Shown in pieces: positions 28,174 to 45,378 of a stretch of DNA of 64,000 nt. This DNA is from Massilia sp. Root335. GTDB taxonomy: Bacteria; Pseudomonadota; Gammaproteobacteria; Burkholderiales; Burkholderiaceae_D. The DNA is taken from NCBI RefSeq assembly GCF_001425685.1, contig NZ_LMCY01000044.1:62763-126762 (forward strand), read 5' to 3'. A model generated the notes under the pieces. The model was given only the letters and a program-made list of their open reading frames with translations. It searched no databases and was not told the origin of the DNA. A program made the translations under genes and the position numbers. Numbering within the stretch: position 1 is the stretch's first letter; the number at the start of each line of letters is the position of its first letter.

Positions 28174-28368
28174 TCATTTTCTCTTCTTGAAATAATCAAT
28201 TTCGGTCAATAGTTGCTGCAAGTGCATTCCAAACAAAATTCCGATAAAAATCGAAAGATAACTGGAAGATGGCGTATTAAAAAGCATAAATATCAGGCAC
28301 AGCAAAATAATTGTGCTGATCGAAATCAATCCGACTTTCTGTTTAATAAACGTCATGGTTTCATTCAT
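28174..28368 (-). CDS. small two-helix membrane protein, candidate microcin immunity protein
   Basis: A 64-residue protein with two hydrophobic helices (VGLISISTIILLCLIFMLF and SYLSIFIGILFGMHL) and a charged C-terminus (EIDYFKKRK). It lies directly downstream of, and on the same strand as, the microcin-like precursor at 28435. Size, topology and position resemble known class II microcin immunity proteins such as MchI. The base composition is AT-rich, unlike the core chromosome. The function is inferred from context only. Confidence 0.5.
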   Translation of the reverse strand: MNETMTFIKQKVGLISISTIILLCLIFMLFNTPSSSYLSIFIGILFGMHLQQLLTEIDYFKKRK

Positions 28369-28398
28369 TTAAACATTGGAAATCAAAACAATATACGC

Positions 28399-28414
28399 AT
28401 ACGCATATGCGTAT
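28399..28414. repeat. 16-base perfect palindrome between precursor and immunity gene
   Basis: ATACGCATATGCGTAT, preceded by a partial repeat (ATACGC at 28393-28398). It lies between the microcin-like gene (ends 28435) and its downstream neighbour. It could be an operator or a processing hairpin; no T-run follows. Confidence 0.4.
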
Positions 28415-28434
28415 ATTGAAACTACTACTATTCT

Positions 28435-28662
28435 TTAACCGAACAAGAAACTGCCGGCGGCGTAGCCAAATCCGAGGCATGCCCCAAACGTACGCGCCCC
28501 CAAAGCCCATCCAAGAGCACCGTCCGTTGCAACAATCGCCCCAACACCGCCAGCGCATGACGCTCCGGCAGCGACCGTTGGAACAGCATACTTCCAATCA
28601 ACTCCACCGGCAACGTCGGCGACTTCAGAAGGGGTGAGTTCGATAAATTGTACGGTAGACAT
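28435..28662 (-). CDS. microcin/class II bacteriocin-like precursor 1 (double-glycine leader)
   Basis: A 75-residue peptide. The leader MSTVQFIELTPSEVADVAGG ends in Gly-Gly and has the E-L-x-x-x-E-V-x-x-V-x-GG pattern cut by C39 peptidase domains. The predicted core of 55 residues is Gly/Ala-rich with two Cys that could form a disulfide, and ends GYAAGSFLFG. A C39 ABC exporter is encoded 4 kb away. Only 16 bases of ordinary sequence separate the start from the decayed IS5, so the native promoter may be gone. Antibacterial activity is inferred, not shown. Confidence 0.65.
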   Translation of the reverse strand: MSTVQFIELTPSEVADVAGGVDWKYAVPTVAAGASCAGGVGAIVATDGALGWALGARTFGACLGFGYAAGSFLFG

Positions 28663-28677
28663 AATTTTCTATAATGA

Positions 28678-29430
28678 GTTCAGCGCTGGTAGCAGCGCTG
28701 CTGCCGTGCTACCCCAAGGGCGAAGGGCGAGGCCGTTCGCCCGTTGGTCTGGAGCGGATGCTGCGCATGTACATCGCGCAGCAGTGCTTCGGCTTGTCGG
28801 ACGAGGGCATCGACGATGCGATCTACGACAGCCAGGCCATTCGCGGTTTTGTCGGCATCGACCTGACGCACGAGTCGGCTCCGGCCGCGACGACGCTGCT
28901 CAAGCAAGAACCACGACGAAGAGCGCGATCCGGAAATGCACCAGTCCAAGAAGGGCAAGAACTGGTTCTTCGGGATGAAGGCCCATATCGGCGTTGATGC
29001 CAGGTCTGGCCTCACGCACACGCTTGTGACCACTGCGGGCAACGTGTCCGACGTCACGCAAACCCACAATCTGCTGCATGGCGCCGAAACGATGGTGTTT
29101 GGTGACGCCGGCTACCAGGGTGCCGAGAAGCGCCCGGAGAACACGGGCAAGGCGGTTACCTGGCATATCGCGATGAAGCGCGGTTTGCGCAAGGCCATGA
29201 AGAAGAATCCGCTGGGCCGCGCCAAGGAAAAGCTGGAGAAGGCCAAGGCTAGCGTGCGCTCCAAGGTCGAGCATCCGTTTCACGTGCTGAAGAACCTGGT
29301 CAGGCAGCACAAGGCGCGTTACCGTGGCTTGGCGAAGAACACCGCACAGCTCCATTCCTTGTTCGCATTCGCCAATCTGGTGCTGGCCGGCCGGACATTT
29401 GGAAGTGCCCGCGCCCGAACTCCGTCCTGA
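28678..29430 (+). pseudogene. IS5-family transposase, truncated and internally deleted
   Basis: The 5' part reads ALLPCYPKGEGRGRSPVGLE, RMLRMYIAQQCFGLSDEGID and ESAPAATTLLKQ; the 3' part from 28936 reads MHQSKKGKNWFFGMKAHIGV, GYQGAEKRPENTGK and KVEHPFHVLKNLVRQHKARY. These are the N- and C-terminal regions of an IS5-group DDE transposase. The normal start and the central part with the first catalytic Asp are missing, and the two pieces are in different frames. Clear terminal inverted repeats were not found. Inactive. Confidence 0.85.
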
Positions 29431-29822
29431 AGCGGAGAATGCGTGCTGCGGCAGGCCAAAACCCGTCTGCTGGCCCAGCACACGCGTGAAAAACAGCTGA
29501 TTTCGACCATCGTGACGTTCGACGCTGGTTTTGTCGCGTCGAATCGGCCGCACAACCTATTTGTTCAGCGTTTCCCTAGATTCACTATTTTGAGATTGGC
29601 CGAGTTGACGCTCAAACTGATGGGTTGGAGGATGAGTTGCGAGGATATGGCTCTCCTTCGCCCTTGATTAACTATAATAGTTCCGATCTTGTTTGATACT
29701 GCGAGAATTTTTAATCCGAAAGATAAATTGATTGAACCAATAAAATTCCGCCAGATAATTAACTCGTTTTTTCAGGCATTCAGGCCAGTGCAAAGCATAA
29801 CTTAACTTTTAGGATTGAAAAA
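29431..29822. other. gene-free stretch with a UDP-xylose synthase gene fragment
   Basis: 392 bases. Around 29578-29630 the sequence reads [17 protein letters not shown], closely matching [18 protein letters not shown] of the UDP-xylose synthase gene at 43235-44191; the DNA ATTGGCCGAGTTGACGCTCA is identical in both (here from 29595, there from 43996). The rest, from about 29660, is AT-rich and presumably holds the promoter of precursor 2; no clear -35/-10 pair was chosen. Confidence 0.6.
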
Positions 29823-30014
29823 ATGAGAGAAATTAGCGATGTTGAAGTTCAAGCGGCTCCTGACGGAATGAGCGTAGGCGATGGCTTGGCGGCTATCGGC
29901 ATTTGCCTAGGCGCAGCATCGATTATGGCAGCGTCCCCGATTGTTGCGGGCGTTGCTTCAGGCGCAATGATGGTCTATGCTGGCGTTGACATTGCCATGA
30001 ACACGTTCGGCTAA
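29823..30014 (+). CDS. microcin-like precursor 2 (MREI-type leader)
   Basis: A 63-residue peptide whose first 15 residues, MREISDVEVQAAPDG, resemble the 15-residue MREI... leaders of microcins H47 and E492, although the usual Gly-Gly or Gly-Ala cleavage pair is replaced by Asp-Gly. The core is Gly/Ala/Met-rich and hydrophobic (LAAIGICLGAASIMAASPIV), compatible with membrane insertion, and ends AMNTFG. A 12-base hairpin and a tiny membrane protein follow. If the unusual junction is not cut, the peptide would not mature. Confidence 0.6.
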   Translation: MREISDVEVQAAPDGMSVGDGLAAIGICLGAASIMAASPIVAGVASGAMMVYAGVDIAMNTFG

Positions 30015-30021
30015 TAACATA

Positions 30022-30053
30022 TTTATGGCACGCTTTTAATGGCGTGCCATAAA
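30022..30053 (+). other. strong hairpin between precursor 2 and its neighbour
   Basis: A perfect 12-base stem (TTTATGGCACGC at 30022-30033 with GCGTGCCATAAA at 30042-30053) and 8-base loop. There is no downstream T-run, so it may be a leaky terminator or an mRNA-stabilising hairpin giving more precursor than immunity transcript. Confidence 0.55.
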
Positions 30054-30073
30054 ATCTCGTTGGAGAGTGCAGT

Positions 30074-30223
30074 ATGCAGAAATCGAAAAAAATTAAGTGG
30101 CTATCGGTCGGTGCTGGTGTACTTTTTATTGCGGCAGGGGTCGCCAACGGGGCTAATACGTTCTATGCGATTGGCGGAATGTTTCTTGTCCTAGGGTTTG
30201 TCCCTTTGATAAAAGCAAAATAA
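30074..30223 (+). CDS. 49-residue membrane protein, candidate immunity protein 2
   Basis: A very short gene: MQKSKKIKWLSVGAGVLFIA is a basic start leading into a first helix, and YAIGGMFLVLGFVPLIKAK gives a second helix and a basic tail. The ribosome-binding site is GGAGAG, 8 bases before the ATG. It follows precursor 2 after 59 bases on the same strand and precedes a terminator, so the two form a likely toxin-immunity pair. No homologue recognised. Confidence 0.5.
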   Translation: MQKSKKIKWLSVGAGVLFIAAGVANGANTFYAIGGMFLVLGFVPLIKAK

Positions 30224-30290
30224 TGCCGGGTGGCCCCAAGAACCAACTGCGAAACTGAAGCGAGCGGACTGGCGCCTGTACATCCCGCGA

Positions 30291-30438: not shown

Positions 30439-31032
30439 TCAACACGACAATAGCGTGTCATCCCGCAAACCACTTTTGCGCACGATCCGGGCAGGTACGC
30501 CCACCACGGTGACATCCGCCGGAACGCTTTTCACGACAACCGCGTTGGCGCCAATCTTCGCGTTATCTCCTACTGTCACGCCGCCGATGACTTTTGCACC
30601 GGAGCATATGGTGACATGATCGCCGACGATCGGGCAGTCTGTTTCGTTCGAGTAGCCAACGGTCACTTGCTGATTGATCCAGCAATACGCGCCGATCGAT
30701 TTGGCGGCGACGATCGTTGCAAAACCATGCTGGATAAACAGTCCCGGCCCGATTGACTGCGCGGCCAGAAACAAGGTATCCATACGCCGGCAGAAGACAT
30801 GCAGGATGATCGAGAGATTCCCGACCCGGTAATAATAGAGGTTGCGAAATTCAGGATAAAACGTCATGAGGAACAGGAACCGGTAATACAGGCCGTCCGG
30901 CTTCCCCTTCATGAGGATATCCGCCCAGCGGCCGATATCCGCATTTATATCCTCGCGCCTGCGCAACACAAACAGGGTCAACACATGCGGAACCAGCCTG
31001 ATCGAACTCAAGAATAAAATTAGAAAACTCAT
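30439..31032 (-). CDS. left-handed beta-helix acyltransferase (serine acetyltransferase-like)
   Basis: A 197-residue enzyme with an N-terminal helical part and a C-terminal hexapeptide-repeat beta-helix (IGPGLFIQHGFATIVAAKSI, then VGDHVTICSGAKVIGGVTVG). His in IQHGFA is the expected catalytic region. It resembles CysE-type and sugar O-acetyltransferases often found in polysaccharide loci. It faces away from the exporter operon. Acetylation of a sugar on the product is possible, but a simple metabolic role cannot be excluded. Confidence 0.8.
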   Translation of the reverse strand: MSFLILFLSSIRLVPHVLTLFVLRRREDINADIGRWADILMKGKPDGLYYRFLFLMTFYPEFRNLYYYRVGNLSIILHVFCRRMDTLFLAAQSIGPGLFIQHGFATIVAAKSIGAYCWINQQVTVGYSNETDCPIVGDHVTICSGAKVIGGVTVGDNAKIGANAVVVKSVPADVTVVGVPARIVRKSGLRDDTLLSC

Positions 31033-31491: not shown

Positions 31492-32760
31492 ATGACTATT
31501 AGGCAGTTGTATCGCACCGAGGCCTTGAATGCGCGGCAGATCAAATGGCTCGGTGATATCGTCCTGGTGCGGCCGGTTTCATTCGCCTTCCTTTGCCTGG
31601 TTGCCGGCCTGGCCGCAGCCATGGTGTTGACGTTCCTGTGTCTAGGCACTTACACGAAGCGCGCCACCGTAACCGGGCAATTGGTTCCCGATCTGGGCCT
31701 GGTCAAGGTCTACGTGCCGCAATTCGGCATCGTCGTGAAAAAAAATGTCGTCGAAGGCCAGTCCGTCAAACGGGGGGACGTCCTGTACGTGCTCTCGAGC
31801 GAGCGGCATAGCGATACGCAAGGCGGCGTGCAGGCGACGATCAGCCATCAGGTCATCGCCCGTCAGGATTCCCTGAAGGAGGCGCTGGAAAAGACGCGCA
31901 GGCTGAATGAAGACGAACGTGTCGCGCTCCTCAAGCGAATCGATGGCCTCGAGTCGGAGCTGGCGAAAATCGACAGCCAGATTGCGGGACAGGCGAGCCG
32001 CGTCAAATTGGCCGACGACGCCGTCGTGCGCATGCGGGAACTCGCGTCGCAAAACTTCATTTCCAAGGAACAGTTGCAACAACGTCAGGCCGACCTGCTC
32101 GACCAGCGCGCGCGCGTGCAATCGCTCGAGCGCGACCGCATCAGCATCGGCCGGGACCTGACGAGCCAGAAAAGCGACCTGGCCAGCATGCCGTTGCGCC
32201 ACCAGAATCAGATTGCCCAGATCGAACGCGACATCGCAAGCCTCGGACAGGAACTGACCGAGAGCGAGGCCAAGCGCCGCCTGGAAATCACGGCGCCGGA
32301 AGCCGGCGTCGCCACCGCGGTCACGGCCGAAGTCGGGCAGATGGTCGACGGGAGCAAGCCCCTGGTCAGCATCGTCCCCGCGGGGGCGACATTGCAGGCG
32401 TACCTGTACGCGCCCAGCCGGGCCATCGGTTTCGTCAAGGCGGGCGATAAGGTGCTGATGCGTTACCAGCCCTACCCCTATCAGAAATTCGGACAGGCCC
32501 AAGGCACCGTCGCCTTTGTCTCGAAAGTCGCGCTGTCCGGCAGCGAACTGGCGGGCATGAACGGAGCGACCGACCAGGCGAACGGTGGCGAGCCGCTGTA
32601 CCGGATCACCGTCAACCTGTCGGCCCAGACGATCAACGCCTATGGCCGCCCGCAGCCGCTGCAAGCCGGGATGCTGCTCGACGCTGACATCCTGCAGGAA
32701 AAGCGCCGTCTCTACGAATGGGTGCTCGAGCCCCTGTACAGCCTCAGCGGCAAACTGTGA
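31492..32760 (+). CDS. HlyD/CvaA-type membrane fusion protein
   Basis: A 422-residue periplasmic adaptor of a type I exporter. One N-terminal helix (FAFLCLVAGLAAAMVLTFLC) anchors it in the inner membrane; a lipoyl-like half motif (VVEGQSVKRGDVLYVL) precedes a long coiled coil (about residues 120-260), then the second half (ITAPEAGVATAVTAEVGQMV) and a beta-barrel. It links the ABC exporter to a TolC-like channel encoded elsewhere. The ATG at 31492 is chosen; an upstream TTG is less likely. The exporter gene follows after 11 bases. Confidence 0.9.
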   Translation: MTIRQLYRTEALNARQIKWLGDIVLVRPVSFAFLCLVAGLAAAMVLTFLCLGTYTKRATVTGQLVPDLGLVKVYVPQFGIVVKKNVVEGQSVKRGDVLYVLSSERHSDTQGGVQATISHQVIARQDSLKEALEKTRRLNEDERVALLKRIDGLESELAKIDSQIAGQASRVKLADDAVVRMRELASQNFISKEQLQQRQADLLDQRARVQSLERDRISIGRDLTSQKSDLASMPLRHQNQIAQIERDIASLGQELTESEAKRRLEITAPEAGVATAVTAEVGQMVDGSKPLVSIVPAGATLQAYLYAPSRAIGFVKAGDKVLMRYQPYPYQKFGQAQGTVAFVSKVALSGSELAGMNGATDQANGGEPLYRITVNLSAQTINAYGRPQPLQAGMLLDADILQEKRRLYEWVLEPLYSLSGKL

Positions 32761-32771
32761 TCGGATCCGGC

Positions 32772-34919
32772 ATGCGTTTCCTCGACGACATCAACTTCGG
32801 CTTCGGTTCCAGGCTGCCGTCGATCCTGCAAACCCAGGCGACCGAATGCGGGTTGGCGTGTCTCGGCATGGTCGCGGGCTACCATGGACACCATATCGAC
32901 CTGGCCACCCTGCGCCAGCAATTTTCGATCTCGCTCAAGGGCGCCACGCTGGCGCACCTGCTCAAGATTGCGAAACGGTTGAATCTGGAATCGCGCCCGC
33001 TGAAGCTGGATCTCGATGAGTTGGACAGGCTGAAACTGCCCTGCATCCTGCACTGGAATTTCAACCACTTCGTCGTATTGAAGGAAGTCGGCGCCAAAAA
33101 AGTAACGATCCACGATCCCGCCGTCGGCGCACGGGAGATTTCGCGGGAAACGTTGTCCGAATCGTTCACCGGTGTTGCCCTCGAACTGTGGCCAAGCTCG
33201 GACTTCAAGCCCCAGGAACAGCGCCAATCGATCAAGTTACGCAGCCTGATGGGGCGCGTCACGGGCCTCGCGCGCTCGTTCTCCCAGATCCTGATCCTCG
33301 CCCTGTCGCTCGAAGTCTTTGCGCTGGTCAGTCCATTCTTCCTGCAATGGGTGCTCGACAACGTGATCGTATCGGGCGATCGCGACCTGCTGACGACGCT
33401 GGCCCTCGGCTTCGGCCTGCTGATGCTCATGCAGCAGGCCGTCGGCTCGCTGCGCTCCTGGGTCATCATGTACATGGCGACCACGCTGAACGTGCAGTGG
33501 CGCGCCAACGTGTTCACCCACCTGATCCGCCTGCCGGTGGAGTATTTCGAAAAACGCCACCTCGGCGACATCGTTTCCCGCTTCGGCACGGTCGACCAGA
33601 TCCAGCACACGCTGACGACTTCCTTCCTCGAGGCGATCCTCGACGGCGTCATGTCGCTCGTGACGCTGGTCGTGATGTTCATTTACAGCCCGCTCCTGGG
33701 CTGGATCGCCGTCGGGACCATGACACTGTACGCGCTGGTGCGCTGGGTCTGGTACGGCCCCCTGCTCAAGGCAACCGAAGAGCAGATCGTCCACGCCGCA
33801 AAACAGCAGAGCCATTTCCTGGAAACGGTACGGGGCGTCAAGGCCATCAAGCTGTTCCAGCGCCAGGACGAACGCCGCGCCAGCTGGCTGACGCTGCTGG
33901 TGGACCAGATCAACGCCGACGTCCGCACGCAAAAACTGCAATTGCTGTACCGGTTCCTCAACGGCCTGCTGTTCGGCGTCGAGAACATCCTGATCGTCTG
34001 GCTCGGCGCCAAGATGGTGCTGGCCGGCGATTTCAGCGTGGGCGTGCTGATGGCGTTCAACGCCTACAAGGGCCAGTTCGACACCCGCGTCGGTTCGCTG
34101 ATCGACAAGTTCACCGAGGTCAAGATGCTGAAATTGCAGGGCGAGCGACTGGCCGACATCGTCCTGACGGCGCCTGAAGACCTGCAGGGCACGCAGATGC
34201 TGGACACCCCCGCACTCGAACCCGTCATCGAGGTCGACAACCTGCGTTACCGCTATGCCGAACAGGAGCCCTATGTGCTCGATGGCGTCACGTTCAGGAT
34301 CACGGCCGGCGAATCGGTGGCGCTCGTCGGTGCGTCGGGTTGCGGCAAAAGCACGTTGATGAACGTCCTGCTGGGCATCCTGCCGGCAACCGAAGGCCAG
34401 ATCACCATCGGCGGCGTCAAGCTCCAGCAGGTCGGTCTCGAGACCCTGCGCCAGATGGTGGGCACCGTGTTGCAGGACGACGTGCTGTTCGCCGGATCGA
34501 TCGCGGACAACATCAGCTTCTTCGATCCGCAGGCCGACCAGAAATGGGTCGAGGAATGCGCGCGGCTGGCCGCCATCGGCCATGAAATCGCCGCCATGCC
34601 GATGGGTTTCAACACGCTGGTCGGCGACATGGGCACGGTGCTGTCGGGCGGTCAGAAACAACGGGTATTGCTGGCACGTGCCCTGTACAAGCGGCCCAGC
34701 ATCCTGTTCCTCGACGAGGCCACCAGCCACCTGGACATCGCCAAGGAACACGAAGTGAACACCGCCGTGAAGGCCCTGAACATCACCCGGATCATCATTG
34801 CGCACCGCCCGGAAACGATCGCGTCGGCACATCGTGTAATCGCACTCCACGCAGGAAAAGTCGTGCAGGATTCGCTCGTGTCCGACCTCTACCAGCAAGC
34901 CCAACAACAAGTCGCGTGA
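32772..34919 (+). CDS. C39 peptidase-containing ABC exporter (CvaB/MchF type)
   Basis: A 715-residue exporter that cleaves double-glycine leaders and exports the peptide. The N-terminal C39 domain keeps its triad: Cys in QATECGLACLGM, His in WNFNHFVVL, Asp in IHDPAVG. A six-helix membrane domain follows (about 160-430). The ATPase domain has Walker A GASGCGKST, signature LSGGQKQR, Walker B ILFLDEATSHLD and the His switch IIAHRPE. Full length, no defects. Start MRFLDDINFGF at 32772 matches the family. It is the natural partner of the three precursors. Confidence 0.95.
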   Translation: MRFLDDINFGFGSRLPSILQTQATECGLACLGMVAGYHGHHIDLATLRQQFSISLKGATLAHLLKIAKRLNLESRPLKLDLDELDRLKLPCILHWNFNHFVVLKEVGAKKVTIHDPAVGAREISRETLSESFTGVALELWPSSDFKPQEQRQSIKLRSLMGRVTGLARSFSQILILALSLEVFALVSPFFLQWVLDNVIVSGDRDLLTTLALGFGLLMLMQQAVGSLRSWVIMYMATTLNVQWRANVFTHLIRLPVEYFEKRHLGDIVSRFGTVDQIQHTLTTSFLEAILDGVMSLVTLVVMFIYSPLLGWIAVGTMTLYALVRWVWYGPLLKATEEQIVHAAKQQSHFLETVRGVKAIKLFQRQDERRASWLTLLVDQINADVRTQKLQLLYRFLNGLLFGVENILIVWLGAKMVLAGDFSVGVLMAFNAYKGQFDTRVGSLIDKFTEVKMLKLQGERLADIVLTAPEDLQGTQMLDTPALEPVIEVDNLRYRYAEQEPYVLDGVTFRITAGESVALVGASGCGKSTLMNVLLGILPATEGQITIGGVKLQQVGLETLRQMVGTVLQDDVLFAGSIADNISFFDPQADQKWVEECARLAAIGHEIAAMPMGFNTLVGDMGTVLSGGQKQRVLLARALYKRPSILFLDEATSHLDIAKEHEVNTAVKALNITRIIIAHRPETIASAHRVIALHAGKVVQDSLVSDLYQQAQQQVA

Positions 34920-34939
34920 ACGAGGGACGAAGAAGACTT

Positions 34940-36706
34940 ATGCTCGACATTAACGATTTCCCGGAGAACCTGGTTGAGTACGACTGCGTCCGCATCCGCG
35001 ATACGCGCACCGTCTGGCTCAACGCCGCCTCGATGGAAAGCCTCGCGGCGGTACTCGATGCGGGCGCGCCGGATACGAACTTCGCGCGGTATTTCTCGTA
35101 TGTGTCCAAGTCCAACCGCTGCTTTGGCGAAGCCGAACTGGACCAGCACGACCGGCGCATGTATCTCGCCGAGCGGTACGGCGGCCGCGGCGTGGGCGAC
35201 AACGGTGGTGGCGGGCGGGTAGGGAATATCGGACCATTCCAGGCCAAGGGCGTCGGGCCGAATCCCCTGGCGCGCGGCAGCTCGACCTGGCATTCGTACG
35301 GTTCCCTGAACCTGATCGATGCCGCCTACGAGGCGATCTACTCCACCGTGCTCGATGGCATACTCCCTCTGGGCTGCGCGAAGATTCACGGCATCATCCA
35401 TACCTCGCAAGGCGGGGCGCTGCAGTCGCTGAACGCGGCAACGAAGGATGCCGAGCTGTTGCCGACGTCCGGCGCCATCCTCGTCCGGGAGCGGACCCTG
35501 CGGCCCGCCCACTTCATGCATGCGGACCTTTTCGCTCCGCCGAAGCCGGCCGGCCTGATGCGCGAGCCCCAGCGGATCCGGGCGGTGCACCGGCGCCTCA
35601 AGACCCGGTTCGAAAGCCACGACCACTTCATCCAGTTCCTCGGGAAGTTCATTCTGTCGTCCGCCAAGCAGTTCGGTTTTGCCCGCGCGGCGCGCATCGC
35701 GCATGGCGGCGTCACGCCATCGAACGTCTGCCTGGACGGCCGCTGGATCGACCTGACCGAAGCCCGCTTCCTAAGCGGCGGAAAGAATTTCCGCGGCCTG
35801 ACGACCTTCTACGACGAACCCCAGGTCATTACCGAAGTCGTCACGCAGTTGATGTACGTATTCGGCAAAAGCAACGTCTCCCGCTTCAACGTGGAGCCTC
35901 TGCTGAACTACTTCCAGAAGACGTTCGACAGCTGTTTCGCCTATTATTCGCTGGAGATCCTGGGCGTGCCCGACGCGAATCTCAGCGCCATCGCCGAGAG
36001 CGAAGACGGGAAAGCATTCGCGAAAGCCTATTCCAGCATCGTCCTGCAGGGCAAGCGGCCGGTGGCCGACTTGCCCGCCGGCCTGGATCGCGACGATCCC
36101 GTCATCGCCTTCATGCGCCTAGCCTATCTCTCGCTGGCGGACATCGAGGCGTCCCTGCCGAAGCTGGGTGCGCTCCTGCGCTGTCCGCCCGCGGATGCGC
36201 TTCCGGTCGCCACGGCCTTCCGCAACCTCTTCCGCCGCGCGATCGCGCCACAGGACGAGGACGTCGCGCCGGAAGCATTCCGCAGCCAGGCCATCGCCTC
36301 GGCGGTCAAGGCGTTGCGGTGGGCCTGCCTGTCCTCCTACTTCTACCGGGACAGGATCGCCTCGCACCTCTACCATGTCACGGCCAATAAGGATCTTTCC
36401 GATCTCGGCGCCTTCATCCAGGAATGCGTCGACCAGTCCACATGGATCTTCGCCAAAGCCTGCAGCGGTGACGTCACGATCCTGGAAACGAAAGAAGTCC
36501 GCATCGGCTTCGACCAGGCGCGATCCGTCTATACCGCGACGGCCGGCGGCGAACGCACGTTCCAGCGCTACGAGGATTGCCTCGCCTTCATCCATGCGTG
36601 CCACCCGGACCTGCGCCTGAGCGACGCGTTCGATCCATTCCCCTACCTTGAAGGCCTCGCCGCCGTCCTCGCCAACCTGGAGCGCATGCCATGCAGATCC
36701 GCCTGA
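34940..36706 (+). CDS. SelO-like pseudokinase protein, MchC/MceJ-like position
   Basis: A 588-residue cytoplasmic protein. Residues 80-135 and 250-280 follow the layout of SelO (YdiU) protein adenylyltransferases: GDNGGGGRVG and QAKGVGPNPLARG (Lys103), Glu131, Arg183 in LVRERT, then HGGVTPSNVCLDGRWIDLTE with Asn262 and Asp271. The residue before Asn262 is Ser where SelO has Asp. The gene order beside a C39 exporter and a HlyC-like gene recalls MchC/MceJ, needed to modify microcins H47 and E492. The ATG at 34940 is preferred to a GTG at 34916. Function inferred. Confidence 0.55.
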   Translation: MLDINDFPENLVEYDCVRIRDTRTVWLNAASMESLAAVLDAGAPDTNFARYFSYVSKSNRCFGEAELDQHDRRMYLAERYGGRGVGDNGGGGRVGNIGPFQAKGVGPNPLARGSSTWHSYGSLNLIDAAYEAIYSTVLDGILPLGCAKIHGIIHTSQGGALQSLNAATKDAELLPTSGAILVRERTLRPAHFMHADLFAPPKPAGLMREPQRIRAVHRRLKTRFESHDHFIQFLGKFILSSAKQFGFARAARIAHGGVTPSNVCLDGRWIDLTEARFLSGGKNFRGLTTFYDEPQVITEVVTQLMYVFGKSNVSRFNVEPLLNYFQKTFDSCFAYYSLEILGVPDANLSAIAESEDGKAFAKAYSSIVLQGKRPVADLPAGLDRDDPVIAFMRLAYLSLADIEASLPKLGALLRCPPADALPVATAFRNLFRRAIAPQDEDVAPEAFRSQAIASAVKALRWACLSSYFYRDRIASHLYHVTANKDLSDLGAFIQECVDQSTWIFAKACSGDVTILETKEVRIGFDQARSVYTATAGGERTFQRYEDCLAFIHACHPDLRLSDAFDPFPYLEGLAAVLANLERMPCRSA

Positions 36707-37860
36707 TGCGCGAGCCCCGCGTCCTGTTCGTCAGCTATGAATTCGGTCCGCAGGTATCGGGCGGCATCGCGCGCGTGATCAATGGCCTCAGCGCCGCCCT
36801 GATCGGCAAGGTCGACTTCGACGTCTTCCTGTTGCAATGGCGCGTCGAGATCGACAATTTTTCCGGCGACCTCTATCGCAACGGCGTGGACAGGCGGTGT
36901 TATTTCGGCCACTACATCGACACGATACGCGACCTCATCAGGCTGAACGGCTACAACATCGTGCACGTCATGCACGCAGGCGAGCACACCTACGAGATCG
37001 TGAAATGCCTGCGGGACGAGGCCGTCGACGTCGTGTTCAGCCTGCACTCGATCATGAAGCACGACCAGTCCATCCGCAAGGCATCGGAAAAAGACCTGTT
37101 TCATGAAGACTTCCTTCTCAAGAACAGCGATCACGTCCACCTGCTGAGCGAGACGGCCCGGCAATGGGTCGCCGCGGCCTATCCGGATTTTCGCCCGAAC
37201 GGGGACTTCCATATCATTCCGAATGCGATCGGGTGCCCGGCCGGGCGCACGCGAATCGCACCGCGCGGGCGGACCGTGCTGTGCATGTCGCGCTGGAGCC
37301 ATGGCAAAGGCCTCGAATACCTGCTGGACGCCATTCCCCATGTGCTGGCGGCCCTGCCGGACGTGCGCTTCGTGCTGGCGGGCAGGAAGGAAAGCAGCTG
37401 GGAGTACGACGTCGCGAGCTATGTGAAAAAAATCGACGAAAAGATCAGCCGCGTCGCAGATCACGTGGAGGTACTCGGCTGGATCGACGACGCGCAGAAG
37501 GACCAGCTGTGCGCACGGGCCGACGTGGTGGTCATGCCCAGCGAAGTGGAGTACTTCCCCTACGCGATCCTGGAACCGGCCGCGGAAGGCATTCCCGTCG
37601 TGGCGAGCCGCATTTCCGGCAGCCGCGAGATCCTCGAGGAAGGACGGGACTGCCTCATGTACGACACGACGGACGTTCTCCAGCTCGCGGAACAGATCGT
37701 GACCGTGCTCGGCAATCCGGACCTGGCCGACCGGCTCGCCGCCAATGCCCATGCGCGCGTTTCGACCGAATACACATGGGACAGGATCAGCAGCATGTAC
37801 CGGGAGCTGTATGTCCGCGTGCTGAATTCCGGCCAGAGCGCCTGGCGCGCCGTCGCATGA
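36691..37860 (+). CDS. GT4-family glycosyltransferase
   Basis: A 389-residue GT-B fold glycosyltransferase. The N-terminal domain starts RVLFVSYEFGPQVSGGIARV, with the glycine-rich GGIARV loop; the C-terminal donor-binding domain has SRWSHGKGLEYLLDAI and the EX7E motif region EYFPYAILEPAAEGIPVVAS. The donor sugar is unknown. Its start overlaps the end of the SelO-like gene by 16 bases, so it is part of the same operon. Confidence 0.9.
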   Translation: MQIRLMREPRVLFVSYEFGPQVSGGIARVINGLSAALIGKVDFDVFLLQWRVEIDNFSGDLYRNGVDRRCYFGHYIDTIRDLIRLNGYNIVHVMHAGEHTYEIVKCLRDEAVDVVFSLHSIMKHDQSIRKASEKDLFHEDFLLKNSDHVHLLSETARQWVAAAYPDFRPNGDFHIIPNAIGCPAGRTRIAPRGRTVLCMSRWSHGKGLEYLLDAIPHVLAALPDVRFVLAGRKESSWEYDVASYVKKIDEKISRVADHVEVLGWIDDAQKDQLCARADVVVMPSEVEYFPYAILEPAAEGIPVVASRISGSREILEEGRDCLMYDTTDVLQLAEQIVTVLGNPDLADRLAANAHARVSTEYTWDRISSMYRELYVRVLNSGQSAWRAVA

Positions 37861-39743
37861 AGTACTGCCTGGTCAACAGCGGTCTTGCCTCCCGCCCCGG
37901 TCTGCCGGTCGGCGTCGAACAATGGGTCGACGCGCTCGGCGGCGAACTGGTCGCGCCCGCCGCCCTCGCTACGCCGGCCGCGTGCGCACGCTACGACGTC
38001 ATCCATATCGTCTGCTGCCCGCAGAACGACCGGCTGATCGCCGATGTCCGCAACCGGCTGGGCGGGAACGGCAAGACCAGAGTGATCCTGTCCCTGCGCA
38101 GTATGTTTGACGCACGCCCGGAGACGCACGAACACGGGGCCCTGGTCGCGGCGTGTGCCCACGCCGACCTGCTCGTCGCCGGCGATCACGCGACCGTGCT
38201 GCATTACGAACGCATGACCGGACGGCGCGTCCACGCACTTCCCGACCCGGCCGACCTGCGCCGGCTCTACGCGGAGGCTGGCGCGTCCGGGCCGAAACTC
38301 GACAGGATCGCCTTCGTCATGCCGCGCGAACGCTTCGACGCGCACGGCCCAGGTTTCCTGGGGCGCGACGTCGAATTGTTCTGCGACGACTTCCGGAGCA
38401 CGCCCGCCCTGCTCGCCCGTCTCGGCCAGTTTGCCTTCATCTGCTTCGACGCCGATCTCGAAGGCCATGACGCGGAATTGATCTACCTGGCTGCCCGGGG
38501 CTGCGCCGTCATCGGCGGCGGCCGCGCCGAAGTCAACAAGCGCTGCTTCGCGCTCAGCGCCCACCTCGCGCCCGACGCCACGCTGAAAACCCTGCGCTGG
38601 TTGCTGGACGACGAAGACGCGAAACGCTACGCGCTCGAATGCGCCGCCGACAAGCTCGAATACTACAATCACGGCAACAGCCGGAACCGCTTGATGGCCC
38701 TGCTCGCGGCCACCGGCCTGCCGGATACGCGCGATCCCGGCGCGGAGTCCGTCCTGGCAGGCGACGCGGACCGGATCGTCTACCTGGATGCGATACGTCA
38801 CGTTTCCGGCCCGGTCCATGTCACCTACGGCAGCAATGAATTCGTGGTGGTCTGCCTGGTCAGGAACGGCGCGGAATACCTGCCGTCTTTCCTGCGTCAT
38901 TACCGCCGTATCGGCGCAACGCATTTCTATTTCGTCGACAACGAATCCACGGACGTCACACGCTCCATCCTGGCGGACCAGCCTGACGTCACCGTGTACA
39001 GGACGGCACTCCAGCACAGGAAATTCGAAAGCGAGATCCGCCGGGCGATCATCGAGAAGCACTGCGCGTCCCGGTGGTGCATGTGCGTCGACATCGACGA
39101 GCTGTTCGAGTTTCCGGGCTCCGGCACCCTCACGATGCGCAGTTTCCTCGATTACCTGAACGCGCACGGGTTCACGTCGGTCGTGGCCTACATGCTGGAC
39201 ATGTTTGCGGCCGACGCGCACACCGCCGGTGTTTATCTCGAGGACGCCTACCCGAATTTCGACCTGAGCGACGTCAGCAAAGGCGATTACTACGCCGGAT
39301 TCGAGGCGTTCTGCGACCACAACGTACTGCCTTGCCCCGAGATCGGCAATTACTATGGCGGCGTGCGGCAACACCATATCCGGTCCGGCGAATCGAGATT
39401 CCTGCTGACGAAGCATCCCCTGATGTTCATCGACCACCACATCGAAGCCGTGACGATGCCCCACTTCTGCAACAAGTCCCGGGTCGCCGATGTGACCTGC
39501 CTGCTGAAGCACTACAAGCTCACGGCCTCGCTCAAGGAGCGCATCGAGGAAGGAATCAGGACGGACAGCTTCTCGTTCATCATCAAGGACCAGATCGCCG
39601 CCTATCTCTCCCTGTCGGGCAACGGGCCGGTTGACCGGGCCGGCCGCCCATCCGGCGTCTACACGGACGTCGGGCGCCTGGTGGAGAGCGGTTTTCTGTA
39701 CACATCGGATCGCTACCAGGCCTACGTGGACGCATCGTCATGA
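37857..39743 (+). CDS. two-domain glycosyltransferase (GT-B-like plus GT2/GT92-like)
   Basis: A 628-residue fusion. Residues 1 to about 310 look like a degenerate GT4-type domain (MKYCLVNSGLASRPGLPVGV, then ELIYLAARGCAVIGGGRAE). From about 330 a GT2/GT92-like domain follows (VVVCLVRNGAEYLPSFLRHY, FYFVDNESTD) with the metal-binding DxD in CMCVDIDELFEF near residue 412. Acceptor and donor unknown. It overlaps the previous stop (ATGA) and the next start, so translation is coupled. Confidence 0.8.
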   Translation: MKYCLVNSGLASRPGLPVGVEQWVDALGGELVAPAALATPAACARYDVIHIVCCPQNDRLIADVRNRLGGNGKTRVILSLRSMFDARPETHEHGALVAACAHADLLVAGDHATVLHYERMTGRRVHALPDPADLRRLYAEAGASGPKLDRIAFVMPRERFDAHGPGFLGRDVELFCDDFRSTPALLARLGQFAFICFDADLEGHDAELIYLAARGCAVIGGGRAEVNKRCFALSAHLAPDATLKTLRWLLDDEDAKRYALECAADKLEYYNHGNSRNRLMALLAATGLPDTRDPGAESVLAGDADRIVYLDAIRHVSGPVHVTYGSNEFVVVCLVRNGAEYLPSFLRHYRRIGATHFYFVDNESTDVTRSILADQPDVTVYRTALQHRKFESEIRRAIIEKHCASRWCMCVDIDELFEFPGSGTLTMRSFLDYLNAHGFTSVVAYMLDMFAADAHTAGVYLEDAYPNFDLSDVSKGDYYAGFEAFCDHNVLPCPEIGNYYGGVRQHHIRSGESRFLLTKHPLMFIDHHIEAVTMPHFCNKSRVADVTCLLKHYKLTASLKERIEEGIRTDSFSFIIKDQIAAYLSLSGNGPVDRAGRPSGVYTDVGRLVESGFLYTSDRYQAYVDASS

Positions 39744-40855
39744 AATACAGTGTTGTCATCCCCACTTACAACAACAGGGACAACCTGATCAATTCCCTGG
39801 AAGCGCTCGTGCGCCTCGACTACCCGGGCCATTGTTTCGAAGTGATCGTGGTCGACGACGGGTCGTCCGATGGATTGATCGCGGCCATCGCGGGTTTCCG
39901 GCACCGGCTCGGCCTGAGGACCGTCCGGCTGGAACGCGACGATCACTCCTGCCGTTCCCGGGCGAGGAATCACGGATGGAAGATCGCCCTCGGCAAATAT
40001 GTGGTCTTCATCGATTCGGACATGATCGTCAAACCCGATTACCTGAAGCAGCTCGACAGGTATTTCGCCGGCGCGGACGACTGCATGGTGATCGGCACCC
40101 GCATCCATTCCCCGGCCAGGGTGCACGTGCGCAGTATTGCCGATGGATCGCTGTTCGAGACAGTCCGCTTCGCAGCGGACGCCATTCCGTCGCTGGATTA
40201 CCGCTACCTGGCGTTCTCGGCGCAATCGTTCAACGGCAGGGCGCTGCCCGATGCGTGGCTGCACGCCTACTCCTGCAATCTGGCGATACCGAAGCGCTGG
40301 TTGTCGGCCAGCGCCGGCTTCGACGAAAACATCGTCGACTGGGGCCTGGAAGATGTCGAACTCGCGTACCGGCTCTACAAGCTCGGCATCCACATCGAGA
40401 TCAATCCCTACCTGGAGGCGATTCACCAGAATCCCGGCCACAGGGACGACGTCGCCATTGGCCAGGCGCGCCTGGAAGGCTATCTCGGCAACATCCACTA
40501 TTTCCTGAGCCGCCATCCCGGCGCACTCGCCCACCACGCCGATCCGGTCGACGTCCTGGTCGAGGGACATCGCTATCGTGAACTGGTGCCCGGCGCGACC
40601 GATTTATGCGTCGACAACTTCGAAGACGACTGTCCGGCCGAATTGGCGCTCGACCTGATCCGCATGGGTGAAGGCCGGCACGACCGGATCATCCTGTTCG
40701 ATTACGCGAGCGCGTCCAACCTGGACGTGCACGTTCAAAAATTGCATTCCCCGGCATGCCCCATCCTGTACTTTCCGATGACGAGAAAGGTGGATGTAGC
40801 CGCCATGATGCATTACATCAGCGCCATGCGCGCCAAGACTGCGGCGCTCGCGTAA
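39740..40855 (+). CDS. GT2-family glycosyltransferase
   Basis: A 371-residue GT-A fold enzyme. It begins MKYSVVIPTYNNRDNLINSL, with VIVVDDGSSDG (UDP-sugar binding) and FIDSDMIVKPDY (DxD-like). The acceptor-side motif WGLEDVELAYRL resembles polypeptide N-acetylgalactosaminyltransferases and chondroitin-type enzymes. A peptide acceptor would fit the microcin context but is not proven. Starts 4 bases before the previous stop. Confidence 0.88.
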   Translation: MKYSVVIPTYNNRDNLINSLEALVRLDYPGHCFEVIVVDDGSSDGLIAAIAGFRHRLGLRTVRLERDDHSCRSRARNHGWKIALGKYVVFIDSDMIVKPDYLKQLDRYFAGADDCMVIGTRIHSPARVHVRSIADGSLFETVRFAADAIPSLDYRYLAFSAQSFNGRALPDAWLHAYSCNLAIPKRWLSASAGFDENIVDWGLEDVELAYRLYKLGIHIEINPYLEAIHQNPGHRDDVAIGQARLEGYLGNIHYFLSRHPGALAHHADPVDVLVEGHRYRELVPGATDLCVDNFEDDCPAELALDLIRMGEGRHDRIILFDYASASNLDVHVQKLHSPACPILYFPMTRKVDVAAMMHYISAMRAKTAALA

Positions 40856-40886
40856 GCGCCGCGCATCGACAAGACGAGACCAAGCC

Positions 40887-41306: not shown

Positions 41307-41342
41307 GCGCACGGAACGACATTGAACCGATCCGACTACGAC

Positions 41343-42353
41343 ATGAAACTCTCCTTCGTCATGCCCTTCACCTTGCGGGAACCGTTGACCGGCGCTTCCT
41401 GCTGGAGAAGCGAAGTGAACGAGGATTGCGTGGCACGCTTCACGCTGTTCCTGCGCTCCTTCCTGCATATGTTCCGGCAGGACGACCTGTGCGAGTTCAT
41501 CGTCGTGTGCCCTGCCGGCCAATGCGCGGCGGTGCGCGACATCATGTCGACCGCGACATGCGACCCGCGCTATATCGTGGTTGCGGAATCCGACGTCGCC
41601 CCCGGCGTCGACGCGATATTGAAAGCGGATGCGGAGGGGCGCGGCGGGTGGTATGCGCAGCAAATCGTCAAGCTGGCCGCGCATCGGATCGTCAAGACGC
41701 CGCATTATGTTGTCCTGGACAGCGACCTGGTTTGCATCCGCCCCTGCGGCCATGCCAGCTTTATCGCAGGAGGCCGCCTGCTGCTCAACGTCGAATCCGT
41801 CGAGGATTATGCGCGGCTCTATACCGGCGGCTTCGCCAGCAAGGAAATCGGCATCAAGAGCGAACGGCGCGTGCAATCGCTGCGCATCCTCGGCAGGGAT
41901 ACCGGGAACGCGAATCATGCAACGTTCTACGGCGAAACGCCCGTCATACTTTCCGCGCCCCACGTGGCGTCCATGCTGCGGGACCTCGAGCGCAGCCATG
42001 GCAAGGATTGGACCACCGTACTGACCGAACAATGCGGCTGGACGGAATACGGCTTGTATTTCGGTTACCTGGATGCCCTCGGCCTCACGGATACGGTGTA
42101 TCGCCCGGCCGGCAGTGACGCGATCCTGAGCCTGGAAAAATCGGTCTGGCAGGAGACGTCCAATTACCGCTCCGTGCGCGCCTACGACTACGCGCACTTT
42201 TTTTGCGACGACCGGGGCTACTTCGTCGCTATCCAGTCGTGGATTCCCAAAACGTCCTGGTTGCCACCGCGCTACGGGTCGAGGCTCGAATTTTATCGCG
42301 ACATGGAGCAATGGATCATGGGGCAAACCAGCAAAACCTTGAATATTAATTAA
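41343..42353 (+). CDS. DUF6492-type putative glycosyltransferase
   Basis: A 336-residue protein starting MKLSFVMPFTLREPL. GWYAQQIVKLAAHRIVKTPH and YVVLDSDLVCIRP (DxD-like) match the DUF6492 family, GT-A-like proteins of sugar loci. The CGWTEYGLYFGYL helix is also typical. A TTG at 41322 with a weak ribosome-binding site could add seven residues. The donor and acceptor are unknown. It continues the operon, with only 3 bases to the next gene. Confidence 0.7.
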   Translation: MKLSFVMPFTLREPLTGASCWRSEVNEDCVARFTLFLRSFLHMFRQDDLCEFIVVCPAGQCAAVRDIMSTATCDPRYIVVAESDVAPGVDAILKADAEGRGGWYAQQIVKLAAHRIVKTPHYVVLDSDLVCIRPCGHASFIAGGRLLLNVESVEDYARLYTGGFASKEIGIKSERRVQSLRILGRDTGNANHATFYGETPVILSAPHVASMLRDLERSHGKDWTTVLTEQCGWTEYGLYFGYLDALGLTDTVYRPAGSDAILSLEKSVWQETSNYRSVRAYDYAHFFCDDRGYFVAIQSWIPKTSWLPPRYGSRLEFYRDMEQWIMGQTSKTLNIN

Positions 42354-42356
42354 ATC

Positions 42357-43238
42357 ATGGACGACATCAAAATCGCACGCGGCGTATATTTTCTCGCCAA
42401 TAACCGGGTCTTCGAACAGGTGATCGCATTCCTGCGAAGCTTTCGTACCCACAACCCCACGATTCCCTTGTGCCTGATTCCTTTCGACAGCGACTTCGAC
42501 AGGATAGCCGCGCTCAAGGATACGTATTCCTTTTCCATCTTCGACGATCCCGCCCTGCTCGCCAGTTGCGATGCCATCAGCGAGAAATTCCACGGCCGCG
42601 TGATCGGCGCCTACCGCAAACTCGTCGCGTGGGAAGGCAAGTTCGAAACCTTCGCGTATATCGATGTCGATACCGTCGTGCTTGATTCGGTGGATTTCGC
42701 ATTCGATCACCTGAAGTACGGCCCTTACATGGCGTCGCACTCGAACATCGAGGCTATCCGGCGCTGGGTATGGAAAGACAACGTCCATGCAACCCATCTG
42801 CTGACGCCACCCCAGATCGCCTACGCGGCCAATACGGGTTTCTTTGTCAGCGTACGCGGCCTGTTCCCCATGAAGCACGCTCTGGCAAAAGTCAATGCGG
42901 CGTTGGAACTCAAGGACTGCATGGAACTGCATTGCATGGAGCAGCCTTTCCTGAATTACCTCGTCGTCACCTCCGGCTATTCCTATGCGAGCCTCCTGAC
43001 GCTGCGCTTGATGGGCATTGCCCCGACAGCGAAGCTGGAATGGTGGGGAGGACAAGAAGGGGCAACGGTAGATAACGGAAAACTCTACCCGCCCGGCGGC
43101 GAGCCGATCTTCCTGGTGCATTGGGCGGGCATCTGGCAGGAAGCCAGCGCATCCGGCAAGAGCCTTCCTTACCAGGCATTGTGGGACTTCTACCGCCGTC
43201 CGGAAATCCCGGCCGATATTTTCACGACAAATCCATGA
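42357..43238 (+). CDS. GT8-like putative glycosyltransferase
   Basis: A 293-residue GT-A-like protein. [20 protein letters not shown] opens the nucleotide-binding fold and [16 protein letters not shown] gives a DxD motif. The C-terminal part has HWAGIWQ, similar to the His-containing metal site of GT8 enzymes. The exact family is uncertain. It starts 3 bases after the previous stop and overlaps the next start (ATGA). Confidence 0.65.
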
Positions 43239-44191
43239 AGCCCATGCACACCATGGAAAGAATCCTCGTAACGGGAGGGGCCGGGTTCCTCGGAAGCCAT
43301 TTATGCGATCGCCTGGTCGCAAGCGGCGCCGATGTTCTGTGTGTCGATAACTTATTTACCGGCAGTAAAGCGAACATCGCCCATCTGATCGGCAAGCCCA
43401 CATTCGAATTGATGCGGCATGACGTGACCTTTCCACTATACGTGGAAGTGGACAAGATCTATAACCTGGCTTGTCCAGCCAGCCCGGTGCACTATCAGCA
43501 CGATCCGGTGCAGACCACGAAGACCAGCGTACACGGCGCAATCAACATGCTGGGACTGGCCAAGCGCGTCAAGGCACGCATCCTGCAGGCGTCGACGAGC
43601 GAAGTTTACGGCGATCCCGAAGTGCATCCGCAGCCGGAGGACTATCTCGGACGCGTCAATCCGATCGGTATCCGTTCCTGTTACGACGAGGGCAAGCGCT
43701 GCGCCGAGACGTTGTTCTTCGATTACTGGCGCCAACACGAACTGCGCATCAAGGTCATCCGCATTTTCAATACCTATGGACCGCGCATGCACCCGAACGA
43801 CGGGCGCGTGGTGAGCAATTTCATCGTGCAGGCCTTGCAGGGTAAAGACATCACCCTGTATGGCGATGGCCAGCAGACCAGGAGCTTCTGCTATGTCGAC
43901 GACCTGATCGACGCGATGGTCGCCATGATGGAGACCCGCGACCACATTACCGGCCCATTCAACGTCGGGAATCCCTTCGAATTCACCATGCTGGAATTGG
44001 CCGAGTTGACGCTCAAGCTGACCGGTTCGAAATCCAGGCTGACGTTTCTGCCATTACCTCAGGACGATCCGCGGCGGCGCAAACCGGATATCGGAGCAGC
44101 GAGGGAAATGCTGGGCTGGAAACCCAAGGTCGGGCTGGAAGATGGGCTCCGGGAAACCGTGAATTACTTCAAGCGGACACTCCTGGTTTAA
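43235..44191 (+). CDS. UDP-glucuronate decarboxylase (UDP-xylose synthase)
   Basis: A 318-residue SDR enzyme that converts UDP-glucuronate to UDP-xylose. NAD-binding motif [16 protein letters not shown]; substrate and catalytic residues in [19 protein letters not shown] and [11 protein letters not shown] (here the Tyr of YxxxK is in CYDEGKR); [15 protein letters not shown] and [10 protein letters not shown] are typical of UXS. It would supply UDP-xylose to the upstream glycosyltransferases. The ATG at 43235 overlaps the previous stop; ATG 43244 or 43253 are alternatives. Last gene of the operon. Confidence 0.9.
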
Positions 44192-44290
44192 GACAACTCG
44201 CCAGGCCAGCCATCTGGCGCCGGTATCAGTTGTTAAGCCAAGAAAGCTGTTTTATTTTTTTGTAAGCGCCATAAAAAATACACAAGGTCG

Positions 44291-44330
44291 CGGATAAACT
44301 TTGATAAATTTTGATAGATTCTGATGGGTT
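44291..44330 (+). repeat. four tandem 10-base GATA-like repeats
   Basis: Units CGGATAAACT, TTGATAAATT, TTGATAGATT and CTGATGGGTT follow each other with an exact 10-base period, close to one DNA turn. A 7-base inverted repeat TCGCGGA / TCCGCGA (44288-44294, 44332-44338) flanks them. Likely a binding array for a transcription regulator or a bent-DNA element. Confidence 0.5.
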
Positions 44331-44374
44331 GTCCGCGAGCCTCAGGCGCGTAATGTGATGTTTTGATATATTTG

Positions 44375-44401
44375 GCGAATATTTTCCGCAAAAATATTCG
44401 C
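44375..44401. repeat. 11-base inverted repeat upstream of precursor 3
   Basis: GCGAATATTTT (44375-44385) and AAAATATTCGC (44391-44401) around CCGCA. A symmetric AT-rich site about 130 bases before the precursor start; a possible operator. Confidence 0.5.
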
Positions 44402-44533
44402 GCATATGGAATTCCTGGTCGAATTAGACTGCATGAATTCAGGATTGATTAACTTAATCGAGTTGACATGGGTTTTAAATAATGAGATTATTTATTGCCG
44501 CGACAAAGCGGCATTTCAATTTTGGAGAGAAAA

Positions 44534-44737
44534 ATGCAAGATCTGAGCTTTGATGAAATTTCAATGGTTTGTGGCGCTGATCGTGGAGACGCTACTGCAG
44601 GCGGAGCGGTTGCTGGAGCAGTCTTCGGTGGCGCAGCGGCTGGCGCAGAATACGGTGTTTGGGGCGGAGCGGGCGGCGTGATTGCCGGGGCAATCATTGG
44701 TGGCGCTATCGGCTACATCGCCTATTCCATGGGCTAA
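44534..44737 (+). CDS. microcin/colicin V-like precursor 3 (Gly-Ala leader)
   Basis: A 67-residue peptide. The 15-residue leader MQDLSFDEISMVCGA has the L-x-x-x-E-(I/L)-x-x-V-x-G-(G/A) pattern of colicin V and class IIb microcins and ends Gly-Ala like the H47 and E492 leaders. The 52-residue core is strongly Gly/Ala-rich with glycine-zipper segments (GVIAGAIIGGAIGYIAY) and ends YSMG. An upstream in-frame Met at 44495 would spoil the leader. A rho-independent terminator follows directly, so it is probably a single-gene transcript. Confidence 0.72.
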   Translation: MQDLSFDEISMVCGADRGDATAGGAVAGAVFGGAAAGAEYGVWGGAGGVIAGAIIGGAIGYIAYSMG

Positions 44738-44746
44738 TAGATTCAC

Positions 44747-44774
44747 CGGCCCGTCTCGTTTGACGGGCCGTTTT
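44747..44774 (+). terminator. rho-independent terminator after precursor 3
   Basis: Stem CGGCCCGTC / GACGGGCCG (44747-44755, 44762-44770) with a 6-base loop and four T. Confidence 0.88.
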
Positions 44775-45204
44775 CAGCTTTAATTTAGCAAGACAATGTC
44801 TTTTAATGTGCGCAGCAGACATTAAATAACTTATTGATGTTTTTTGGCTTGGCTGCCTCTGAATTCGCTATGGCAACTTGAAATTTTCGAAAAGAGAAAT
44901 CTCAATACTGATCGTAATAATTTATCGTGCAGCCTGTAGCGGCGGCAGCGGATTTTTTATAGAATGACATGGAAAAATGGCTTATTCCAGGCGCATGCCA
45001 AATAGCCGCTGCGAAGAATATGGGTTAGGTTGCCATTATTACCACAGCAATGGATCGATGGCGACGTCGTGTTTGGATGAAGCTGTTTAGTGACCTACAT
45101 GCACAGATTCTTCCTCCCCTGTATTGTTATGCCTGAAATTATTCGGCGCGCCCGGATTTTTGGCGCGAAAAATGTAAGCTTAATTTGGTCTACAGGAGAA
45201 TTTA
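44775..45204. other. AT-rich gene-free stretch between precursor 3 and a small membrane gene
   Basis: 430 bases with no supported gene. It contains short inverted repeats such as ATTTTTGGCGCGAAAAAT (45157-45174), shortly before the ribosome-binding site of the next gene. No transposon end or RNA gene was recognised. Confidence 0.4.
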
Positions 45205-45378
45205 ATGCCAGCCTCTAACAATTCGAGGAATCGCAATTTCATCGGCGTTGGCATATCCCTCGGAACGGGAGTTGGCGCTGCAGTTGGCATTATTACTGGC
45301 CATCTCGCACTGGGTATCAGCTCTGGAGTTGCAATTGGCTTTGTTATCGGTGTTTTGCTGTCAAAGCGACGTCGATGA
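45205..45378 (+). CDS. 57-residue glycine-zipper membrane protein, possible immunity protein 3
   Basis: A short gene with a clear ribosome-binding site (AGGAG, 8 bases before the ATG). After a polar start (MPASNNSRNRNFIG) come two glycine-rich helices (GTGVGAAVGIITGHL and GVAIGFVIGVLL) and a basic end KRRR. It is the nearest downstream gene to precursor 3, 467 bases away, so an immunity role is possible but weaker than for the other two. Similar small glycine-zipper proteins of unknown role exist widely. Confidence 0.5.
   Translation: MPASNNSRNRNFIGVGISLGTGVGAAVGIITGHLALGISSGVAIGFVIGVLLSKRRR

Follow-up and report, generated by a model that had tools for sequence, protein, structure and literature searches.

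A microcin-type locus of Massilia sp. Root335 in which MchC and MchD homologues accompany a putative sugar module

Introduction

What do the maturation proteins MchC and MchD attach to a microcin precursor when no siderophore gene lies beside them? The question is raised by a locus at positions 28174 to 45378 of a 64,000-nucleotide stretch (hereafter, the window) of contig NZ_LMCY01000044.1 of Massilia sp. Root335 (genome of 7.1 Mb in 71 contigs). Homologues of both proteins are encoded there together with a C39 exporter, several sugar-related proteins and microcin-type precursors (Table 1). In the siderophore microcins MceC/MchA/McmL glucosylate enterobactin and MceIJ/MchCD join the product to the Ser/Gly-rich C-terminus of the peptide, as outlined in PMC7472721 and PMC7680869. 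What exactly MceI/MceJ and their MchC/MchD homologues do is given as unknown in a 2020 review (PMC7472721).

On balance, we favour the explanation that the cluster is of the class II microcin type and that its MchC/MchD pair couples a precursor, through the C-terminal carboxylate, to a cluster-made glycan instead of glucosylated enterobactin. UDP-xylose synthase (UXS) would convert UDP-glucuronate to UDP-xylose, and the GT4, GTx628, GT2, DUF6492 and Npun proteins would assemble a short glycan before the joining step, perhaps acetylated by the CysE-like protein. By analogy with MceIJ, MchC, in which the SelO nucleotide-site residues are kept, would use ATP to activate the terminal carboxyl (often of Gly), and MchD would help to transfer the activated peptide to a sugar hydroxyl. 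The C39 exporter with HlyD and an assumed TolC-type channel would cut the leader and export the product, as their families suggest. At the target cell the glycan could provide uptake, binding or specificity; the small membrane proteins may provide immunity, and the product presumably kills competitors. The glycan is placed at the C-terminus and not on side chains mainly because a sugar-bearing partner is what the pair uses in the reaction known so far.

The MchC and MchD homologues

The product of the SelO-like gene has significant sequence and profile similarity to E. coli MchC and a SelO-type fold; its K102, E130, N261 and D270 align with SelO residues. It had no Pfam or NCBIfam match at E<=1. 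The gene has both the MchD/HlyC-type gene and the C39 exporter gene as neighbours. Similarity to SelO/YdiU protein adenylyltransferases is by profile only, and identity with the housekeeping SelO was ruled out, as the genome has a separate SelO elsewhere.

The HlyC-like product matched Pfam HlyC (PF02794) with E=0.048 and 14 bits, below the 25-bit cut-off. A chance match was considered for this gene: one-step tests failed, yet an iterated profile and the fold decided for kinship with MchD. It differs from HlyC/ApxC toxin-activating acyltransferases in falling below the Pfam cut-off, in lacking the Asp of E. coli MchD, and in its position beside mchC and a microcin exporter. Profile A2 found a single irrelevant match (E=0.26) among PDB sequences. 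The preliminary description of this DNA, made from the letters alone, had compared the two genes to mchC and mchD, and profile and fold bear out that kinship for both.

In Albitalea terrae a 1098-aa (amino acid) open reading frame (ORF; L034, 2076-5372) fuses an MchC-type and an MchD-type part, which is consistent with both working as one enzyme.

Sugar genes and their linkage to mchC

The enzyme identity of UXS is well supported by sequence, and its homologues are 87, 70 and 72% identical in Massilia rhizosphaerae (L008), Duganella radicis (L009) and Duganella sp. 1411 (L010), respectively. Three proteins have glycosyltransferase domains above cut-off (GT4, GTx628 and GT2). When the same gene set was looked for in related species, both Duganella clusters proved to hold the complete operon of ten genes in another order, the UXS-Npun pair standing before hlyD in one of them and separating GTx628 from GT2 in the other. 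They also hold the acetyltransferase gene, which the preliminary description had missed and whose homologues there are 66% identical.

Among the ORFs scanned, glycosyltransferase-type genes neighbour at least 10 of 28 mchC loci (L008, L009, L010, L013, L015, L016, L017, L023, L030 and L032; in L013 and L030 by phmmer only); this count has no background rate, so whole-genome linkage counts serve as the control. mchC matches occur in 5 of 62 Massilia and 12 of 74 Duganella-genus genomes. GTx628 relatives are present in 1 and 5 genomes of the respective sets, and all six lie 1.2 to 4.5 kb from an mchC match, three of them by distant mchC types; a weak relative in L013 is outside this count. Npun was found in two genomes of each set, within 5.7 kb of mchC in 4/4 cases. 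Neither gene was found away from mchC in the 136 genomes, and GTx628 was not found in genomes G025 and G027. As regards GTx628 and Npun, relatives that keep the sugar genes without precursor or exporter were not encountered, with the caveat that the M. rhizosphaerae stretch, which ends 1.5 kb past mchC, showed neither HlyD nor C39.

These counts bear on two other explanations. The sugar genes could serve a surface or secreted polysaccharide, their place next to the microcin genes being due to chance or to immunity through a changed surface. Their glycosyltransferase and acetyltransferase profiles are indeed of the exopolysaccharide type. We consider this improbable, as the reading frames overlap from mchC into the sugar genes, the gene set is kept despite reshuffling in three genomes, GTx628 and Npun stay with mchC in the 136 genomes, and the operon has no match to polymerase or flippase families. 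Somewhat less improbable, though still unlikely, is a glycocin-like system, in which the glycosyltransferases would sugar precursor side chains (Ser, Thr, Tyr, Asn) and MchC/MchD would make a separate change to the peptide. Glycosyltransferases do recur next to C39 exporters and precursors, and enterocin F4-9, a glycocin, is described as carrying O-linked sugars on side chains. Against it speak the tracking of mchC by GTx628 and the MchC/MchD reaction as described so far, which couples a glycosylated group to the peptide C-terminus.

Precursor peptides and small membrane proteins

Of the three microcin-type leaders claimed in the preliminary description, those of precursors A (20 aa, ending GG) and C (within the first 15 residues, ending GG/GA) fit the strict pattern; that of B ends APDG, not GG/GA, and matches loosely only. 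The strict double-Gly pattern is expected in 0.04 ORFs per 17.5 kb by chance (Markov-1 sequence, 100 runs, maximum 1) and has no match in the window outside the cluster. It has none either in five more stretches of the same genome (L045, L046, L048, L049 and L050), which were picked for C39/mchC genes and are not neutral controls. In the sister clusters strict matches number one in D. radicis, five in Duganella sp. 1411 and one in M. rhizosphaerae, where another was seen by eye. Massilia pinisoli (L012) has no strict match and one with a looser pattern. Together with the HlyD and C39 family matches, the leaders support microcin-type precursors with C39 export.

A single relative of precursor A, with one residue different, was found in a set of 5.8 billion proteins. 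NCBIfam gave nothing above cut-off for seven precursors and three membrane ORFs; the nearest score, 20.4 bits with a cut-off of 21.5, was that of L010 9768-9890 with TIGR03949, a model of class IIb bacteriocins. C-terminal Gly ends all three window peptides and 7 of 11 leader-bearing peptides in the four sugar-gene clusters, each time preceded by F, Y or M (the remainder end in A, S, T or L). Set against 17.7% Gly in the cores this gives a binomial tail of 9e-4, which is a lead and not a test, as the peptides are few, partly related and picked by leader and cluster.

Each precursor was also said to have a two-helix membrane protein nearby. By hydropathy (19-residue window, threshold 1.6) this holds for the C-side ORF, with two segments against one in each of the ORFs near A and B; the C-side ORF is the most distant from its precursor (Table 1).

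The absence of a siderophore gene from the cluster, noted from the start, is upheld in that no IroB relative is found there: an IroB-type C-glucosyltransferase has no match on the cluster's contig. A third explanation takes the true partner to be a small molecule, either a siderophore or another metabolite, whose biosynthesis is encoded elsewhere in the genome and to which the cluster adds a longer sugar linker. The enterobactin genes of E. coli are located away from its microcin cluster, so siderophore genes need not sit beside the precursors. An mchC-mchD pair followed by a gene for a 2572-aa nonribosomal peptide synthetase (NRPS) in a Thalassocella metagenome-assembled genome (L014, 4330-14403) also fits; that locus is a possible peptide-NRP conjugate system. 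On the other side, the search of four genomes, which among siderophore genes covered IroB, gave IroB matches in three; these are partial (26-41% identical) and lie on contigs other than the cluster's. A linker would hardly call for five glycosyltransferase-type genes, and the precursors have no Ser-rich tail of the siderophore microcin kind. We give this explanation little credence, slightly less than the glycocin-like one.

Findings that weigh against a glycan partner

Several observations weigh against joining to a cluster-made glycan. The window MchD has no counterpart of an Asp present in E. coli MchD and in most aligned relatives, and its catalysis may therefore differ; direct comparison of the two proteins failed (13.9 bits; hhalign probability 8.9). 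We infer that DUF6492 and Npun are probably glycosyltransferases. Among the 17 genomes of the two genera in which mchC was matched, 10 lack both GTx628 and Npun. UXS and Npun are present in M. rhizosphaerae, where GTx628 has no relative genome-wide; no HlyD or C39 was found on the stretch examined, whose contig ends 1.5 kb past mchC, and genome G027 was not searched for an exporter. In M. pinisoli, MchC and MchD are 49% and 50% identical to the window pair, and none of the window's sugar genes lies on the 21.7 kb analysed, with no Npun or GTx628 genome-wide.

Other MchC/MchD loci

The M. pinisoli pair is accompanied by a lantibiotic dehydratase (PF04738, E=6e-81), a major facilitator superfamily (MFS) gene and a C39 exporter. 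Positions 5158-13573 of L012 hold a single run of lantibiotic dehydratase, MutS-like ATPase, MchC, MchD and MFS genes, possibly a new dehydrated-peptide system using MchC/MchD. In L013 and L030 the pair lies near radical SAM genes. As the pair occurs in several kinds of peptide system, we limit the glycan proposal to the sub-group with sugar genes.

Strain Root335 itself has a second cluster (L044, G000:C4:108000-127500, and L045, C4:127501-140000), in which two MchC-type and two MchD-type genes are accompanied by C39 exporters, GT4 and a gene of the alpha-amylase family; a precursor-like gene of 126 aa in this cluster includes a Ser/Gly-rich stretch. MchC, MchD, C39, an amylase-family gene and GT4 also occur together in Duganella sacchari (L030). 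A fourth MchC gene of the strain (L046, G000:C16:58000-77000; 9253-12958) has an MchD neighbour and stands ahead of a gene for DUF6625. This domain recurs downstream of the L011 pair and, in P0011, as a fusion with MchC, and may thus belong to the same chemistry. In Catenovulum and Gayadomonas (L016, L017) several leader-bearing Gly/Ala-rich small ORFs surround, on both strands, one MchC/MchD pair and a GT2 gene.

Operon layout and setting

The genes lie where the preliminary description had placed them, and its one-directional run is real: ten genes occupy 31492-44191 with gaps of -16 to +31 bp. Their order, with gaps in bp between neighbours, is HlyD, 11, C39 ABC (ATP-binding cassette) exporter, 23, MchC, -16, GT4, -4, GTx628, -4, GT2, 31, MchD, 15, DUF6492, 3, Npun, -4, UXS. 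Flanking the operon are the three precursor-like genes and the small hydrophobic ORF that accompanies each of them, the CysE/WcaB-type acetyltransferase gene and a broken transposase, presumably of IS5 type.

G+C is 0.53 at 28-32 kb, 0.54 at 42-46 kb and 0.63 in mid-operon, compared with 0.66 before and 0.65 after the locus, which is compatible with acquired DNA. No tRNA genes were found in the window. Just beyond the cluster, on the opposite strand, is a GT4 glycosyltransferase gene (45553-46659, -), followed by a peptidase M13 gene (46705-48795).

Table 1. Features of the locus, in window coordinates
Feature	Coordinates	Strand	Evidence and remarks
Putative immunity protein for A, 64 aa, hydrophobic	28174..28368	-	66 bp downstream of precursor A, same strand; hydropathy segment 12-30
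Microcin-type precursor A, 75 aa	28435..28662	-	Leader ends ELTPSEVADVAGG; tail SFLFG; fits strict leader pattern
Broken transposase, two ORFs	28674..29430	+	Between precursor A and remainder of cluster; DDE_Tnp_1 E=2.5e-29 on 28936-29427
Precursor B, 63 aa	29823..30014	+	Atypical leader MREISDVEVQAAPDG; tail MNTFG; misses strict leader pattern
Putative immunity protein for B, 49 aa	30074..30223	+	59 bp from precursor B
CysE/WcaB-type hexapeptide acetyltransferase	30439..31032	-	Hexapep E=4.7e-8
HlyD-type membrane-fusion adaptor	31492..32760	+	Family match
ABC exporter, N-terminal C39 leader peptidase	32772..34919	+	C39 E=1.8e-41
MchC-family protein (SelO fold), 587 aa	34943..36706	+	Similarity to E. 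coli MchC
GT4 glycosyltransferase	36691..37860	+	E=9.3e-28
GTx628, 628 aa, GT2_4/GT92 glycosyltransferase domain	37857..39743	+	PF13704 E=1.2e-24
GT2 glycosyltransferase	39740..40855	+	E=1.8e-23
MchD-family (HlyC-fold) protein, 139 aa	40887..41306	+	Profile link to E. coli MchD; HlyC-type fold
DUF6492 protein	41322..42353	+	E=1.8e-49; conserved in L009, L010
Npun_R2821-type protein	42357..43238	+	117.7 bits, below its 250-bit cut-off
UDP-glucuronate decarboxylase (UXS)	43235..44191	+	E=2.3e-125 to human UXS1 2b69
Precursor C, 67 aa	44534..44737	+	Leader MQDLSFDEISMVCGA; tail YSMG; fits strict leader pattern
Putative immunity protein for C, 57 aa, two hydrophobic segments	45205..45378	+	467 bp downstream of precursor C

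Implications

Where a cluster keeps MchC/MchD and has a sugar module in place of the usual partner, the ligase is uncoupled from siderophore chemistry, which offers a direct way to its true acceptor; the locus is a natural experiment on MchC/MchD recognition. More tentatively, we speculate that the pair could be a general peptide C-terminus-to-sugar ligase, siderophore microcins being one use of it. The present locus would then make a new class of exported peptides which carry an oligosaccharide, probably xylose-containing, as an ester on the C-terminal Gly and enter or bind targets by the glycan and not by an iron carrier. If the glycan does replace the siderophore, Trojan-horse entry of microcins would extend beyond iron uptake, and there would be a route by which ribosomal peptides are turned into C-terminal glycoconjugates.

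Comparison with known systems

The preliminary interpretation, a system related to the siderophore microcins and distinct from them, with a glycan on the peptide, stands as regards the MchC/MchD kinship, microcin-type precursors with C39 export, the lack of an IroB relative, two sugar genes tied to mchC and the host, Massilia, a betaproteobacterium; the glycan itself enters here as a favoured proposal. Our searches of the open-licence literature on Massilia and Duganella clusters showed none described as combining MchC/MchD with a sugar module.

The locus resembles those of the class IIb microcins H47, M and E492 (mchBCDEF, mcmA; mceCDGHIJ) in the short CvaC-type leaders, the small membrane ORFs beside precursors, HlyD and C39, and the MchC and MchD homologues. 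Criteria given in 2024 for class IIb, as described in PMC11634061, are a Ser-rich C-terminus with Ser as the last residue, at most one Cys, a leader that ends GG/GA in the first 15 residues and a membrane ORF no more than 200 bp away. The window precursors have no Ser-rich tail ending in Ser: Ser occupies 1, 0 and 1 of the last 12 residues of A, B and C, compared with 6 in E. coli MchB and 7 in McmA. They contain 2, 1 and 1 Cys, respectively, that of C being in the leader. Mining by the Ser-rich tail ending in Ser, as described for that study, would miss these peptides. Unlike the class IIb clusters, the present one has a multi-gene sugar module with UXS and no IroB relative; an example of the siderophore type is the Pantoea plasmid mchC-mchD-hlyD-C39 cluster, which adjoins a clear IroB relative (5e-177). 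The hosts differ as well, being Massilia and Duganella here. The 2024 survey reports new class IIb members in seven further Enterobacteriaceae species (PMC11634061).

With glycocins the locus shares exported bacteriocin-type peptides and dedicated glycosyltransferases, and differs from them in having MchC/MchD. As judged from their predicted sequences, precursors A and C are class II microcins in the broad sense (GG/GA leader, C39 exporter, membrane ORF nearby), and B, whose leader ends DG, is not. Overall, since the tails are not Ser-rich and the cluster has no IroB relative, the predicted gene content places the locus in the MchC/MchD maturation group and among the broad class II microcins, and outside the class IIb siderophore microcins.

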